From: Chloroflexota bacterium
GTDB lineage: Bacteria > Chloroflexota > UBA11872
Direction of reading: 5' to 3'
Assembly: GCA_022826485.1 (NCBI GenBank)
Contig: JAJDUU010000016.1
Coordinates: 124,001 to 188,000 of the forward strand
DNA: 64,000 nt
Shown: in pieces, positions 41,912 through 62,987 of the stretch
How positions within the stretch are numbered: position 1 is the stretch's first letter
Layout: each line of letters opens with the position of its first letter
Program-made: the position numbers and the translations under genes
The notes under the pieces: model-generated
Seen by the model: the letters and a program-made list of their open reading frames with translations, nothing else
What the model was told of the DNA's origin: nothing
Databases searched by the model: none

Positions 41912-43498
41912 GTGGCTGCCGTGGCATTTGAGCTCGAAGTCTTTCGCCATCTCTTCGCGTCGGTTGCCGAAGAGATGGGCGTGACGGTGCAGCGCAGCGC
42001 GCACTCTCCCAATATCAAGGAGCGGCGCGATCATTCCTGCGCCGTGTTCGACCACCAGGGCCAGATGGTGGCGCAGGCGGCCCACGTTCCGGTGCACCTG
42101 GGCGCCATGCCCATGGCGGTGCAGGCGGCCATCGACTTCTACGCCGAGGGCACGCCCACCCCGGGCGATCTGATCATCGTCAACGATCCGTATCTGGGCG
42201 GCACGCACCTTCCCGACATCACTACGGTCTCGCCGGTTTTCGTCGGCGAGCCGCTCGAAATGTGGGGCTGGGTGGCCACGCGCGCGCACCATGCCGACGT
42301 GGGCGGCCTGACGCCCGGCTCGATGCCCATGTCCACGGAGCTCTTCCACGAAGGCATCGTCATCCCGCCCCTCAAGCTGGTGGACGCCGGTAAGGTTGAC
42401 GAGCAGCTGATCGAGCTCATCTGCCGTAACGTGCGCACGCCCGACGAGCGGCGCGGCGACCTCGCGGCGCAACTCGCCTCGCACCAGGTGGGCGAAACCC
42501 GGCTGCAAGCGTTTGCGCGACGCTACGGACCGGGCGAGTTGACTCGCATGGCGCGGGATCTCATGGCCTACACCGAGCAACTGGTGGTGGCGCGGCTGCG
42601 CCGCGTGCCGAATGGGACGTATGCGTTCGAGGACTTCCTAGACGATGACGGGCGAGGCGGTCCCTCGACACCGCTGCGGGTCGCCATCACCGTGCGCGAC
42701 GGGCGACTCATCGTCGACTTTGCGGGCACGGCGGCGTCGGTGCCCGGATCGCTCAACGCGCCGTCGGCCATCACTCACTCCGCCGCGCTCTATGTCGTGC
42801 GCTGCCTGGCGGGCGCCGACGTGCCGGCCAACGACGGCGCGCGGGCGGTGCTGGACGTGCGCGTGCCGCTGGGAACGGTTCTGAATCCCCAACCGCCCCA
42901 CGCCGTGGCGGCGGGCAACGTCGAGACGTCGCAGCGAGTCGTGGATCTGCTCTGGGGCGCCCTGGCCCAGGCGCTTCCCGACGAGGTGCCGGCCGCCAGC
43001 CAGGGAACCATGAACAACCTCGTAATCGGCGGAACCGATCCGCGATCGGGCGGTGCCTATACCTACTACGAGACCATTGCCGGGGGCTCCGGCGCGGGAC
43101 CCAGGCGACCGGGGACGAGCGGCGTCCACGTCGCCATGACCAACACGTTGAATACGCCCGTCGAGGCGCTCGAGCTCGCCTATCCGATGCGCGCGCGGCG
43201 CTATGCCTTGCGGCCGGGCTCGGGCGGCGCCGGAGCGCACCGCGGCGGCAACGGCGTGGTGCGCGAGGTCGAAATGCTGGCCCCGGCGTCGGTGACCATC
43301 GTGGCCGAGCGACGTCGGATTGGCCCCTGGGGACTGCACGGCGGCGGCGCGGGCCGGCGCGGGCGTGATCGGATCCGCCGCCGCGGCGGACGCTGGCGTG
43401 ACGTTCCGGGCAAGGGCACGCATCGTCTGGAGGCCGGCGATCTGGTGCAGGTCTCCACGCCCGGCGGCGGCGGCTGGGGCGCTAGCGACGCCGGTTGA
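41912..43498 (+). CDS. Hydantoinase B/oxoprolinase family protein (HyuB)
   Basis: A 528-residue protein of the HyuB/oxoprolinase beta family, which with HyuA hydrolyses N-methylhydantoin, 5-oxoproline or related rings in an ATP-dependent way. Signatures: ERRDHSCAVFDHQGQMVAQAAHVPVHLGAMP near 35, NDPYLGGTHLPDITTVSPVF near 90, TRAHHADVGG near 128, PGSMPMSTELFHEGIVIPP near 140, and a Gly-rich C-terminus. GTG 41912 has no ribosome-binding site, but TATGCT (41897-41902) ends ten bases before it, suggesting a nearly leaderless mRNA. HyuA, its usual neighbour, is absent. The 3' end overlaps the convergent thpR by 17 bases. Confidence 0.88.
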   Translation: MAAVAFELEVFRHLFASVAEEMGVTVQRSAHSPNIKERRDHSCAVFDHQGQMVAQAAHVPVHLGAMPMAVQAAIDFYAEGTPTPGDLIIVNDPYLGGTHLPDITTVSPVFVGEPLEMWGWVATRAHHADVGGLTPGSMPMSTELFHEGIVIPPLKLVDAGKVDEQLIELICRNVRTPDERRGDLAAQLASHQVGETRLQAFARRYGPGELTRMARDLMAYTEQLVVARLRRVPNGTYAFEDFLDDDGRGGPSTPLRVAITVRDGRLIVDFAGTAASVPGSLNAPSAITHSAALYVVRCLAGADVPANDGARAVLDVRVPLGTVLNPQPPHAVAAGNVETSQRVVDLLWGALAQALPDEVPAASQGTMNNLVIGGTDPRSGGAYTYYETIAGGSGAGPRRPGTSGVHVAMTNTLNTPVEALELAYPMRARRYALRPGSGGAGAHRGGNGVVREVEMLAPASVTIVAERRRIGPWGLHGGGAGRRGRDRIRRRGGRWRDVPGKGTHRLEAGDLVQVSTPGGGGWGASDAG

Positions 43499-44108
43499 AC
43501 AGGCGAAAGCCCCGCTCGGCCTCCGCGGCCGGCGGAGCGTCCGCATCGAACTCGACCGCCAACACCTCGCGGTAAACCGCGCCGGCCGGCGACAGGTCGC
43601 TTTCGAAGAGGCAGACGGCGTCCACCGTGTGGGCGCCAAGCGCTTCCAGGCGCGCGGCCTCGAAGCGACGCGCCACGCCCATCCGCGTGGACGGGGTGGC
43701 CTGACGCCCGATGCGCGCGAGCGTGACGTGCGGACTGAACGGCCGGGACCCCATGCGCAGTCCGATGCCCTGCATCTCACGCGTGACGGCCGCCTGGAGA
43801 TCGCGCACGGCGTCGAGGTCGCCGGTCACGCCGACCCAGGCGACGCGCGGCTCGCCGCCCGTGGGAAACGTGCCGCCGCTGCCGAACCTCAGCACGAAGG
43901 GCGAGCGCCCACGCGTCGCGGCCTCCAGACCTGAGCGGATGCTGTCGGCCGAGTGCGCCGGCACTTCGCCCAGGAAGGCCAGGGTCAGATGCAGACTATC
44001 GGCCGACATGCAGCGCACGTCGCGCACGTTGCCGACCAACGAGCGCGCACGTCTGGCGAGCTCGACCCGCAGCTCCTGCGGATAGGAAATGGCGACAAAC
44101 GCTCGCAT
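43482..44108 (-). CDS. thpR: RNA 2',3'-cyclic phosphodiesterase (2'-5' RNA ligase family)
   Basis: A 208-residue two-histidine phosphodiesterase. The two HxTx motifs are LHLTL (His40, Thr42) and PHVTL (His127, Thr129), with the MRAFVAISYPQEL N-terminus and FGSGGTFP loop typical of ThpR. Family members open 2',3'-cyclic phosphate RNA ends. The ATG 44108 lies inside the inverted repeat that overlaps the promoter of the divergent DXS-like gene. No adjacent RNA-repair gene. Confidence 0.87.
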   Translation of the reverse strand: MRAFVAISYPQELRVELARRARSLVGNVRDVRCMSADSLHLTLAFLGEVPAHSADSIRSGLEAATRGRSPFVLRFGSGGTFPTGGEPRVAWVGVTGDLDAVRDLQAAVTREMQGIGLRMGSRPFSPHVTLARIGRQATPSTRMGVARRFEAARLEALGAHTVDAVCLFESDLSPAGAVYREVLAVEFDADAPPAAEAERGFRLFNRRR

Positions 44109-44124
44109 AGGCTGCGAGTATAAT
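44102..44124 (+). promoter_or_regulatory. Promoter of the DXS-like gene with adjoining dyad
   Basis: TATAAT (44119-44124), a perfect -10, is directly preceded by the inverted repeat CTCGCA-TAGGC-TGCGAG (44102-44118) occupying the spacer. No consensus -35 is present, so activation or repression by a protein at the dyad is likely. It is about 77 bases before the DXS-like start and also covers the thpR start. Confidence 0.5.
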
Positions 44125-44200: not shown

Positions 44201-45502
44201 ATGGCCGCGGCCGAAGGCGTCCTCATCAGCGACGGAACGACGCCGCTGGATACCGCGCGCCGGCACGAGCTAGGCGAGCAGCTCCGCGACCGCATCCGCC
44301 GCGCCGAATCCGGGGCATCCGCGGCCACCCTGGCTGCCGCCGATTTGGCCGTGGCGATCCACACCACTGTTCCCAATCCGGCGACCACGGTGTTTTGGGA
44401 CGCCGGCGGACATGCCGAGGCCTACCGGCACCTCCTGGGCCTCGAACCATCGACCGCGGCCCCGCCGGCGCCCGGCCGAGCCGTCTCCGAGGCCGTGGGC
44501 GTGGCGGTGGCGCGCATGTTGCAGGGCGACGCGACGTCGATCGTCGCGGTCATCGACGGACAGGGCTTGAGCGCCGGACTGGCGTTCGAGGCGGTCAATC
44601 ACGCGGGGCACCTGCAGCTCCCGTTGGTGCTCGTGCTGGTGGACGCTCCCAGCACGCGTGCCCGCAGCGTCGGCGCCGTCTCGCGTCATCTCACCCGCCT
44701 GCGCGGTCACCCGCGCTACGCCGAGGCCAAGGCCCTGATCGAGCAGGCGTTGAGCCGGATGCCGGCGGGCGGCCAGGCCGTCGAGGTGGCCCGGCGACTC
44801 AAAAACTCCATGCGCGAGTTGCTGATTCCAACCGAAATCTGGGAGGAATTGCTCGGCTTCACCTATCTGGGACCGGTCGACGGGGCCAGCGCCGACGCCC
44901 TGTCGGAATCGCTGGCGCTGGCTCTGGAAGTGCGCCGGCCGGTGCTGCTGCACGTGGCGGCTCCCGCAGGCGCGGCCGTGCGTCGCCCGTCGGCGGACGC
45001 CGTCCGCAACGGCGCCGCGGCAGCGCGCGAGGCCTGGTTGGGGACCGCGGCGGCCGTCCTCGCGGACCTCGCGGAATCCGATGAGCTGTGCGTGACCGTG
45101 AGCGCGGGCAGCACGGCTCGCGCGGCGCTGCACGCCGTCGCCGAACGCGTGCCGGAGCGGTTCCTCGACGTCGAGCTCGGCGAAGCGCACGGCATGTCGC
45201 TGGCGGCGAGCCTGGGCCGGCAAGGCATGCGTCCGGTGGTCGTCCTGGCCGCCTCTCGCGCGCTGGCGACCATCGCGCCCTTGCTCACCGACGCCCCCGA
45301 GGCGGCGTCGCCCCTGACCATCGTGGCCTTTGCCGATGCGGCGGATGATTCGGCGGAGCGAATGCTGCCGCTGGGCGCAATCCCCGGCCTCGACGTGGTT
45401 ACGCCCGCGACGCCCGATGAGCTGCGAGACGTGCTCGCGTCGGCGCTGGCCGGGCGGCGCTGGACCCTGGTGCAGTTGCCCGCGGGCGCCACGCCGGAGT
45501 AA
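44201..45502 (+). CDS. DXS-like (1-deoxy-D-xylulose-5-phosphate synthase) paralogue, degenerate
   Basis: A 433-residue protein clearly derived from DXS: LSAGLAFEAVNHAG near 125, VGAVSRHLTRLRGHPRYAEAK near 160, LLGFTYLGPVDG near 215, LLHVAAPAG, then a pyrimidine-type domain (LDVELGEAHGMSLAASLG, Glu retained). The His-Leu-Gly motif near the N-terminus is gone, the GDG motif of the TPP-magnesium site reads DGQG out of register, the NDN ligand is VDA, and the DRAG...HHG segment is lost. The third (C-terminal) domain, about 180 residues, is absent; normal DXS has about 620. GAGG lies seven bases before the ATG. Activity as DXS is very unlikely, and a regulatory or altered role is inferred. An amidohydrolase gene follows by 18 bases. 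Confidence 0.78.
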   Translation: MAAAEGVLISDGTTPLDTARRHELGEQLRDRIRRAESGASAATLAAADLAVAIHTTVPNPATTVFWDAGGHAEAYRHLLGLEPSTAAPPAPGRAVSEAVGVAVARMLQGDATSIVAVIDGQGLSAGLAFEAVNHAGHLQLPLVLVLVDAPSTRARSVGAVSRHLTRLRGHPRYAEAKALIEQALSRMPAGGQAVEVARRLKNSMRELLIPTEIWEELLGFTYLGPVDGASADALSESLALALEVRRPVLLHVAAPAGAAVRRPSADAVRNGAAAAREAWLGTAAAVLADLAESDELCVTVSAGSTARAALHAVAERVPERFLDVELGEAHGMSLAASLGRQGMRPVVVLAASRALATIAPLLTDAPEAASPLTIVAFADAADDSAERMLPLGAIPGLDVVTPATPDELRDVLASALAGRRWTLVQLPAGATPE

Positions 45503-45520: not shown

Positions 45521-46396
45521 ATGCACGACGATCCGTCCCCAATCATCGACGCCCACACCCACGTCGTGCCTCCGGACGTGGCGGCCGATCGGGAGCGATT
45601 CCTCGAAGCGGATCTCTGGTTTCGCCGTCTCTACGCCAATCCCCGACGCACCCTCGCCACCGCCGACGACGCGGCGCTCGAAATGGCTCGCTCGGGCGTC
45701 ACCACCACCGTTGCCTTCGGTTTCGCGTGGCGGGACCCGAGCCTGTGCGTCCTCAACAACGACTACATCCTCGAACAAGCCGCGGCGCATCCCGAATCGC
45801 TGGTCCCCTATTGCGTGGTGTCGCCGTCCGACCTCGAGTTCAGCATCGTGGAGATGGAGCGGTGCCGGAGGCGCGGAGCTGTCGGCGTGGGCGAGCTGTT
45901 TCCGGAAGGCCAGGGATGGAACCTGCACGACCGCGGCGCGCTGCGGGAATTCGTCGGCGCGGTTCGCGGGCTGGGACTGGTGCTCAACCTGCACGTGAGC
46001 GAGCCCGCCGGCCACGACTATCCCGGCAAGGACTCGACCACGCCCGCAGCCATCTGGCCGCTGATCGAGATGGCGGGCGGCGAGGTGTCCATCGTGCTCT
46101 CACACTGGGGCGGCGGCGCCGCGTTCTACGAGCTGATGCCCGAGGTTCGCGATCTGACGCGCCGGATTTACTACGACTCCGCGGCCAGCCATCTGTTGTA
46201 TGTGCCCCACGTCTTCGACGTGATGGCGCGGCTGGCCCCGGGGCGGATCCTGTTCGGCAGCGACTTCCCGCTCATGACCCAGCGCCGGGCGCTGCGTCAC
46301 GTGCGCGCGGCTGGACTGGATGCGACGGTGATGGCGGCGTTGCTGGGCGGCAATGCCCAAAAGCTGGGACTGGGCGGCGCTCCGAGATTGACCTGA
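45521..46396 (+). CDS. Amidohydrolase 2 family metal-dependent hydrolase (COG2159)
   Basis: A 291-residue TIM-barrel hydrolase or decarboxylase of the ACMSD-related group. Motifs: IIDAHTHVVPP (8-18; HxH), LNLHVSEPAG near 155, IVLSHWGGGAAF near 190 and ILFGSDFPLM near 245 (Asp). Members decarboxylate aromatic acids or hydrolyse cyclic compounds, but the substrate is not identifiable. It starts 18 bases after the DXS-like gene, probably in the same transcript. It ends 20 bases before the convergent corrinoid protein gene. Confidence 0.83.
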   Translation: MHDDPSPIIDAHTHVVPPDVAADRERFLEADLWFRRLYANPRRTLATADDAALEMARSGVTTTVAFGFAWRDPSLCVLNNDYILEQAAAHPESLVPYCVVSPSDLEFSIVEMERCRRRGAVGVGELFPEGQGWNLHDRGALREFVGAVRGLGLVLNLHVSEPAGHDYPGKDSTTPAAIWPLIEMAGGEVSIVLSHWGGGAAFYELMPEVRDLTRRIYYDSAASHLLYVPHVFDVMARLAPGRILFGSDFPLMTQRRALRHVRAAGLDATVMAALLGGNAQKLGLGGAPRLT

Positions 46397-61826: not shown

Positions 61827-62987
61827 TTGAGTACCGCACCCAAGCGAATTGTGATCCTCGGGGCAACCGGTTCCATCGGCACCCAGACCCTCGATGTCGT
61901 GCGCGCGCACCGCGACCGCTTCGAGGTGTGCGGCCTGACCTGCAATTCGAGCGCCGACCTGCTCATCGAGCAGATCGAGGAATTCAACGTGCCGGCGGCT
62001 TGCCTGCGCGATGCCTCGGCGGCATCCGCGGAATGGCCGGAAGACTGCGAGCGCTTGCCCTATCCGGAAGGTCTGGAGCAGCTCGCCGCGCGCGACGACG
62101 TGGACATCGTGGTGGTGGCGACGATCGGCGGCGACGTCGGCTTCCGGCCCACAGAGGCTGCGCTCCGAGCGGGCAACTCCGTGGCCCTGGCGAGCAAGGA
62201 GCTGCTGGTGATGGGCGGCCGGCTGTTCCGCGACCTCGCCGACAGCACGGGCGCCCAGATTCTGCCGATCGACAGCGAGCACAGTGCTCTGTGGCAGTGC
62301 CTGGTGGGCGAAGACGCCGGATCCATTCGGCGGCTCATTCTCACGGCGTCGGGTGGGCCATTCCGCGAAACCGACGCCGCCGCCATTCGCGACGCAACCG
62401 CCGCGGAAGCACTCAAGCATCCCAACTGGGTCATGGGGCCGAAGATCACCACCGATTCGGCCAGCTTGATGAATAAAGGGCTCGAGGTCATCGAGGCGCA
62501 CTGGCTGTTCGATCTTCCCTACGACCACATCGAGGTGATCATTCATCCTGAATCCATCGTGCATTCGATGGTTGAATTCCACGACGGCTCCATAAAAGCC
62601 CAGTTGGGAACCCCGGATATGCGTCACCCCATCCAATATGCGTTGGCCTACCCCGAGCGGCTGAACGCCGCCCACTCCAGCCTGGCGTTGGACGAGTTGC
62701 GGCAGTTGCGATTCGAAACGCCGGACCTGGAGCGCTTCCCGCTCCTGCGCGCGGCCATGGACGCCGGGCGGGCGGGCGGCACCGCGCCGGCCACGCTGTG
62801 CGGCGCCGACGACGCCGCGGTCGAGATCTTCCTGCGCGGCGACCTGAGGTTCGGCGAGATGGTGGACGCCGTGCTGGACGCCATGGCGGCGACGTCCGTG
62901 CGGCCACTGGACTCGCTCGACACGGCCCTCGACGCCCATCGGCAGGGCATGGAGCACGTTCGACGGAGCGTCCCGGCCACGTCGTGA
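61827..62987 (+). CDS. dxr: 1-deoxy-D-xylulose 5-phosphate reductoisomerase
   Basis: A 386-residue enzyme making MEP, the second step of the non-mevalonate pathway. Motifs: ILGATGSIGTQTLDVV (10-25; NADPH site), ALASKELLVMGG near 125, PIDSEHSALWQCL near 150 (metal and substrate), TASGGPFRETDA, MGPKITTDSASLMNKGLEVIEAHWLF and HPESIVHSMVEFHDGSI. TTG start with GGAG eight bases upstream. Its stop overlaps rseP by four bases. The presence of true dxr shows the MEP route is used, while the DXS-like gene at 44201 cannot supply its substrate. Confidence 0.95.
   Translation: MSTAPKRIVILGATGSIGTQTLDVVRAHRDRFEVCGLTCNSSADLLIEQIEEFNVPAACLRDASAASAEWPEDCERLPYPEGLEQLAARDDVDIVVVATIGGDVGFRPTEAALRAGNSVALASKELLVMGGRLFRDLADSTGAQILPIDSEHSALWQCLVGEDAGSIRRLILTASGGPFRETDAAAIRDATAAEALKHPNWVMGPKITTDSASLMNKGLEVIEAHWLFDLPYDHIEVIIHPESIVHSMVEFHDGSIKAQLGTPDMRHPIQYALAYPERLNAAHSSLALDELRQLRFETPDLERFPLLRAAMDAGRAGGTAPATLCGADDAAVEIFLRGDLRFGEMVDAVLDAMAATSVRPLDSLDTALDAHRQGMEHVRRSVPATS

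Follow-up and report, generated by a model that had tools for sequence, protein, structure and literature searches.

The open reading frame at positions 44201-45502 of the window, the whole 64,000-nucleotide stretch of Chloroflexota DNA that was analysed, appears to encode a conserved, non-catalytic DXS pseudoenzyme, which most likely serves as a protein-binding partner of the catalytic DXS through an arm in domain I, a reading given a probability of about 0.45. DXS catalyses the rate-limiting step at which the MEP pathway begins, and is a drug target. The role of its domain I loop is puzzling, since this loop can be deleted in vitro, and a natural protein which conserves the segment offers a direct handle on it. 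The gene and its surroundings comprise the following features.

44201..45502, forward strand: gene for the DXS-like pseudoenzyme (433 aa), assigned by profile searches, PDB sequence matches and the residue table.
43482..44108, reverse strand: thpR (LigT-like 2'-5' RNA ligase), the divergent upstream neighbour, assigned by Pfam and synteny.
45521..46396, forward strand: amidohydrolase (Amidohydro_2), the downstream neighbour, assigned by Pfam and synteny.
44119..44124, forward strand: TATAAT, a -10-like hexamer in the spacer between thpR and the pseudoenzyme gene, kept within the genus.

The frame begins with ATG and encodes 433 amino acids with zero internal stops, and is thus intact as originally predicted. 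The strong promoter of the original prediction reduces to the conserved TATAAT hexamer, which reads TATAGT in 10/11 aligned second-genus sequences, while a sigma-70 consensus scan returned zero sites. Homology with DXS through two domains, which had been proposed from alignment by eye, goes beyond chance. The protein matches the Pfam family DXP_synthase_N (PF13292; gathering cut-off 21.2) with 133.4 bits (E=1.2e-38; profile positions 115-273), and only DXS appear among its best PDB sequence matches. The AlphaFold2 single-chain model comprises two domains (mean pLDDT 75.5; pTM 0.60), and DXS structures make up 50/50 of the listed Foldseek matches to this model (TM-score by query 0.61-0.71). The match to the TIGR00204 dxs profile (1.7e-49, 168.9 bits) lies far below the equivalog cut-off of 465.95 bits. 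Domains I and II of the paralogue are homologous to those of TIGR00204 DXS, and the arm motif L.RLR...Y...K.. and the EELGF.YLGPVD region are common to both, but the paralogue lacks the ThDP/Mg motif, an intact catalytic and substrate site and domain III, and conserves the arm that is variable in DXS.

The extent of catalytic loss was tabulated for eighteen orthologues aligned to E. coli DXS, with nineteen catalytic DXS from the family itself and a further 84 DXS in the alignment. Among the orthologues, H49 is replaced by Ala (18/18) and R99 is gone in 17/18, with Arg retained in one row. The GDG motif is lost, with G151 replaced by Asp (18/18), D152 by Glu or Gly (17/18, one row retaining Asp) and G153 by Ala or Gln. 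N181 is replaced by Ala or Thr, H299 is deleted or replaced, D427 is missing in 18/18 and Y392, F395, R398, R420 and R478 are likewise missing. E370 is Gly in 12/18 orthologues, the catalytic Glu having become Gly in the second genus. The H431 motif is gone, and the His found at the aligned column in 4/18 orthologues lies within a poorly conserved, unreliably aligned stretch. A block of ~22 residues (GLSGF..ES.HD..GHA.T) has been deleted or can no longer be recognised, and the same holds for the DRxG..DG.THHG stretch. Domain III is missing in 18/18 orthologues, which are 423-433 aa long, where a three-domain DXS has about 620 residues. The motif losses and the missing C-terminal domain read from the single sequence thus recur throughout the orthologues. 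Judged from what is known of the family, these residues should rule out ThDP-dependent DXS activity of the paralogue through all mechanisms known.

The segments of the gene to which the remaining evidence refers are as follows.

44471..44482, forward strand: codons 91-94, invariant P-G-R-A in place of S-S-T-S of DXS, at the site of the deleted GLSGF..ES.HD..GHA block.
44474..44881, forward strand: codons 92-227, conserved domain I core plus arm, with 72% between-genera identity and 67% of columns invariant.
44555..44563, forward strand: codons 119-121, remnant of GDG (D-G-Q here; D119 invariant across orthologues).
44639..44665, forward strand: codons 147-155, remnant of the NDN/diphosphate loop, V-D-A-P-S-T-R-A-R.
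44681..44881, forward strand: codons 161-227, the arm, equivalent to the DXS flexible-loop segment, delimited by identity, dN/dS and alignment.
45071..45499, forward strand: codons 291-433, a reduced, fast-evolving Pyr-type domain II (identity; dN/dS 0.24-0.35).

Residues of the paralogue that are (near-)invariant but uncommon in DXS concentrate at the former ThDP contacts or next to them in both genera. These include A39 (E. coli DXS H49), H71 (Q81), P91-G92-R93-A94 (123-126), D119 (G151), V147 and A149 (N179 and N181) and R153 and R155 (I185 and E187). V147, R153 and R155 are invariant and A149 occurs in 17/18 orthologues. Since the replacements are common to both genera, the pocket has been rebuilt and is not drifting.

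The arm presents the inverse of the usual DXS pattern. Residues 161-227 of the paralogue align to ~193-255 of E. coli DXS and hence contain the flexible loop (E. coli 198-240). The 84 other DXS, among which Bacillota and Chloroflexota are over-represented, have their lowest domain I conservation here, with a pairwise identity of 0.36 over E. coli 196-243 versus 0.64 and 0.61 in the flanks, while the corresponding values for the paralogue are 0.88 versus 0.80 and 0.75; the arm is the most conserved part of its domain I. The spacing between the NDN loop and GF.Y.GP measures 57-59 residues in almost every other DXS sampled, including those of sister family f2, and 44-45 residues in the catalytic DXS of this family, where the arm stretch consists of unrelated sequence rich in Pro, Ser and Thr. 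Within the family, the arm was lost from the live copy, which retains the active site, and the opposite holds for the dead copy. Gain of the paralogue and loss of the arm both fall on the family stem branch, and so represent a single co-occurrence and not a correlation.

Selection varies along the protein. Median pairwise dN/dS for the whole paralogue is 0.172 in the source genus and 0.175 in the sister genus. It falls to 0.025 and 0.029, respectively, over the arm (residues 161-227) and rises to 0.35 and 0.24 in domain II. The whole-gene values for the catalytic DXS of the family are 0.098 and 0.056 in the two genera. Paralogues of the two genera are 80% identical over residues 161-227 and 67% identical over 114-160, with domain II at 23-35%. 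Few of the protein segments examined are as constrained as the arm and the domain I core. An overlapping gene as the source of the low arm dN was rejected because arm dS is ordinary (0.50 and 0.73), and the constraint thus acts on the DXS-like protein itself. The description of the protein as degenerate suits domain II only, and fails for the strongly constrained arm and domain I core. Selection for a non-catalytic function, as originally suggested, is well supported by the orthologues in two genera, their fixed genomic slot, purifying selection and the fixed pocket replacements. The segment is kept at a dN/dS of about 0.03 in the paralogue and is gone from the catalytic enzyme, and this contrast provides a route to the role of the segment.

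The paralogue occurs in 6/6 genomes of the source genus (82-89% identity) and 12/13 genomes of the sister genus (46-52% identity), the one exception being a 76% complete genome which also lacks the amidohydrolase neighbour. Orthologues of near-constant length thus occupy the same slot in every family genome whose assembly contains the block (18 genomes). The order of fourteen genes, valS, HD/OB protein, small ORF, hyuB, thpR, paralogue, amidohydrolase, corrinoid-binding protein, rdgB, SDR, SDR, ksgA, pth and mfd, is kept in both genera, except where contigs end and for some minor variations; the position beside the amidohydrolase, where orthologues were to be sought according to the original prediction, is conserved in both. 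Two adjacent rdgB matches were observed in each of two second-genus genomes (L142:10281-11687 and L148:3755-5162). A peptide-pattern scan of genome contigs found three same-genus orthologues, and is not exhaustive since several of its patterns fail to match the second genus. Sister family f2 has the same gene block with the amidohydrolase and without the paralogue; at one f2 locus (L188:9400-10629) a hemW-like radical-SAM ORF, named by eye, lies between the amidohydrolase and thpR. Sampling of ~300 genomes across the phylum gave, among the listed matches from outside the family, full-length DXS frames and a few shorter frames located on fragmentary contigs. The paralogue is thus a retained family-level innovation.

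A second, canonical dxs, for which a search had been proposed, is encoded elsewhere in the source genome (L001, G000:C29; 676.5 bits on TIGR00204, cut-off 465.95), and its residues indicate a live catalytic DXS. The source genome also has dxr and ispH, while HMG-CoA reductase was not found in it. The presence of this full dxs means that the MEP pathway has a normal first enzyme and that the paralogue, which is not adjacent to dxs, is extra. In the trees the paralogue forms one clade (support 100/100), and an AU test with the arm columns left out did not reject placement of this clade with the DXS of the family (p 0.40). Over paralogue residues 92-255, identity is highest to other Chloroflexota DXS (52% to L021), versus 38% to the DXS of the family itself. 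The paralogue may have originated as an in-family duplicate or from another Chloroflexota lineage.

A live paralogue in the same genome and purifying selection on the dead copy, the two marks of a pseudoenzyme paralogue, are both found here. The DXS-like protein would be a subunit that binds other protein, most likely the arm-less catalytic DXS. The arm of the DXS-like protein, along with the neighbouring surface of domain I, would restore, in trans, a structural or regulatory function which the catalytic DXS once had in cis, and might set the stability, conformational state or metabolite response of DXS and thereby isoprenoid flux, in a division of labour akin to that of a live enzyme and its prozyme. 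As far as sequence comparison can tell, the arm-specific conservation and the complementary loss from the catalytic DXS favour this partner role. By analogy with prozymes, a subunit or regulator would be the simplest reading, since a dead homologue keeps the arm that the live enzyme lost. The low AlphaFold2 confidence in the arm (pLDDT about 47-59) is compatible with folding on a partner, but also with plain disorder or a shallow alignment. A more elaborate version, offered tentatively, is a two-component bacterial DXS. A second DXS would have arisen by duplication or acquisition, after which the arm disappeared from the live copy and both the active site and domain III from the dead one, and a heteromer with the arm in trans would control the first committed isoprenoid step.

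The conserved arm corresponds to a segment which in DXS is located near the active site. The flexible loop of DXS has very low conservation and plays no part in shaping the active site, and the loop-truncated P. aeruginosa enzyme has kinetics comparable to those of the untruncated enzyme (PMC10504544). Truncation of the loop in E. coli DXS lowers kcat only 1.5-fold, and an allosteric ligand site of P. aeruginosa DXS lies beside the loop, close to the other monomer (PMC13082120). Like the loop-truncated crystallisation constructs delta-paDXPS, delta-kpDXPS, delta-mtDXPS and delta-ecDXPS, the catalytic DXS of the family has lost or rewritten this segment (PMC10504544, PMC13082120), but those constructs were engineered, whereas the change in the family occurred naturally and alongside a separate protein in which the segment is conserved. 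Because loop deletion hardly alters kinetics in vitro (PMC10504544, PMC13082120), the catalytic DXS need not require the arm.

For the same reason, the dispensability of the loop for DXS catalysis in vitro, a neofunctionalised binder that acts independently of DXS stays a serious rival. The pocket of such a binder would have been rebuilt (R93, D119, R153, R155) for an anionic ligand or macromolecule, and its arm would contact some other target. Clustering of the invariant replacements at the former cofactor contacts, and the tolerance of arm loss by the catalytic DXS, make this quite possible, but the strongest constraint lies in the arm and not in the pocket, the arm complements the loss in the catalytic DXS and the ligand is hypothetical. 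Conserved adjacency and a gap of only 18 bp in the source genus could be taken to indicate that the paralogue partners or scaffolds some other protein, such as the neighbouring amidohydrolase, within an operon. Adjacency carries little weight where the whole block is kept, and with the gap widening in the second genus and the amidohydrolase of f2 occurring in the same block without the paralogue, this role is unlikely.

Conservation of a protein with a rewritten pocket could also reflect a new, ThDP-independent enzyme activity. This is rather improbable, given that domain II, which would form half of the site, evolves fast with few invariants, and that a new catalytic constellation is not evident in the invariant residues. 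The fold and family match, on which a still-active ThDP-dependent DXS or transketolase would rest, are outweighed by the missing GDG, Asn181, His49, Glu370 (12/18), Phe395, Arg420 and domain III, and this highly improbable reading was rejected. A decaying pseudogene, suggested by the lost motifs, the lost domain III and the fast domain II, is scarcely credible, being refuted by eighteen intact frames of near-constant length, synteny and dN/dS far below 1, with the arm at ~0.03 in two genera.

The partner reading can be set beside known systems. No earlier case of a bacterial DXS pseudoenzyme was found in a limited literature search, nor is one known to us, and the paralogue may be the first. 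We also know of no complementary arm loss for DXL1 or plant DXS3. Arabidopsis DXL1 and plant DXS3 are likewise divergent DXS-like proteins with absent or doubtful DXS activity, but tomato DXS1-3 are reported to be full-length, with three domains (PMC5368609). A dead paralogue activates its live relative in the case of trypanosomatid deoxyhypusine synthase (PMC3663545) and of the AdoMetDC prozyme (PMC5201418). The likeness is that a dead copy stands beside a live one in a single genome, while the differences are that those pairs are eukaryotic and belong to other enzyme families, with complex formation and activation proven there and inferred from sequence here. The DXS-like dead copy also differs in being without a whole domain.

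Several further observations concern DXS and the MEP pathway among the relatives. The position of E. coli H80 (GHQ) is Asn (SNQ/TNQ) in 21/21 catalytic DXS of the order (families f1 and f2) and His in the 84 other DXS. One second-genus genome has a second dxs of the first-genus type on a 5.2-kb contig (L124, G011:C33), which is probably contamination. Most of the class relatives G021, G022 and G024-G040 (e.g. L172, L175) encode ispH and dxr; among these genomes there is no HMG-CoA reductase and no full-length DXS match. The PF13292 matches in these genomes are short, those of L175 and L172 being split transketolase-like pairs with ORFs of about 280-293 and 356-376 aa. Within the window, dxr, which encodes the second MEP enzyme, is located at 61848-62219 (G000:C41:185848-186219), ~17 kb downstream of the pseudoenzyme gene. 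Comparable linkage of dxr occurs in relatives, including f2, and since f2 has no paralogue, this linkage is probably ancestral.
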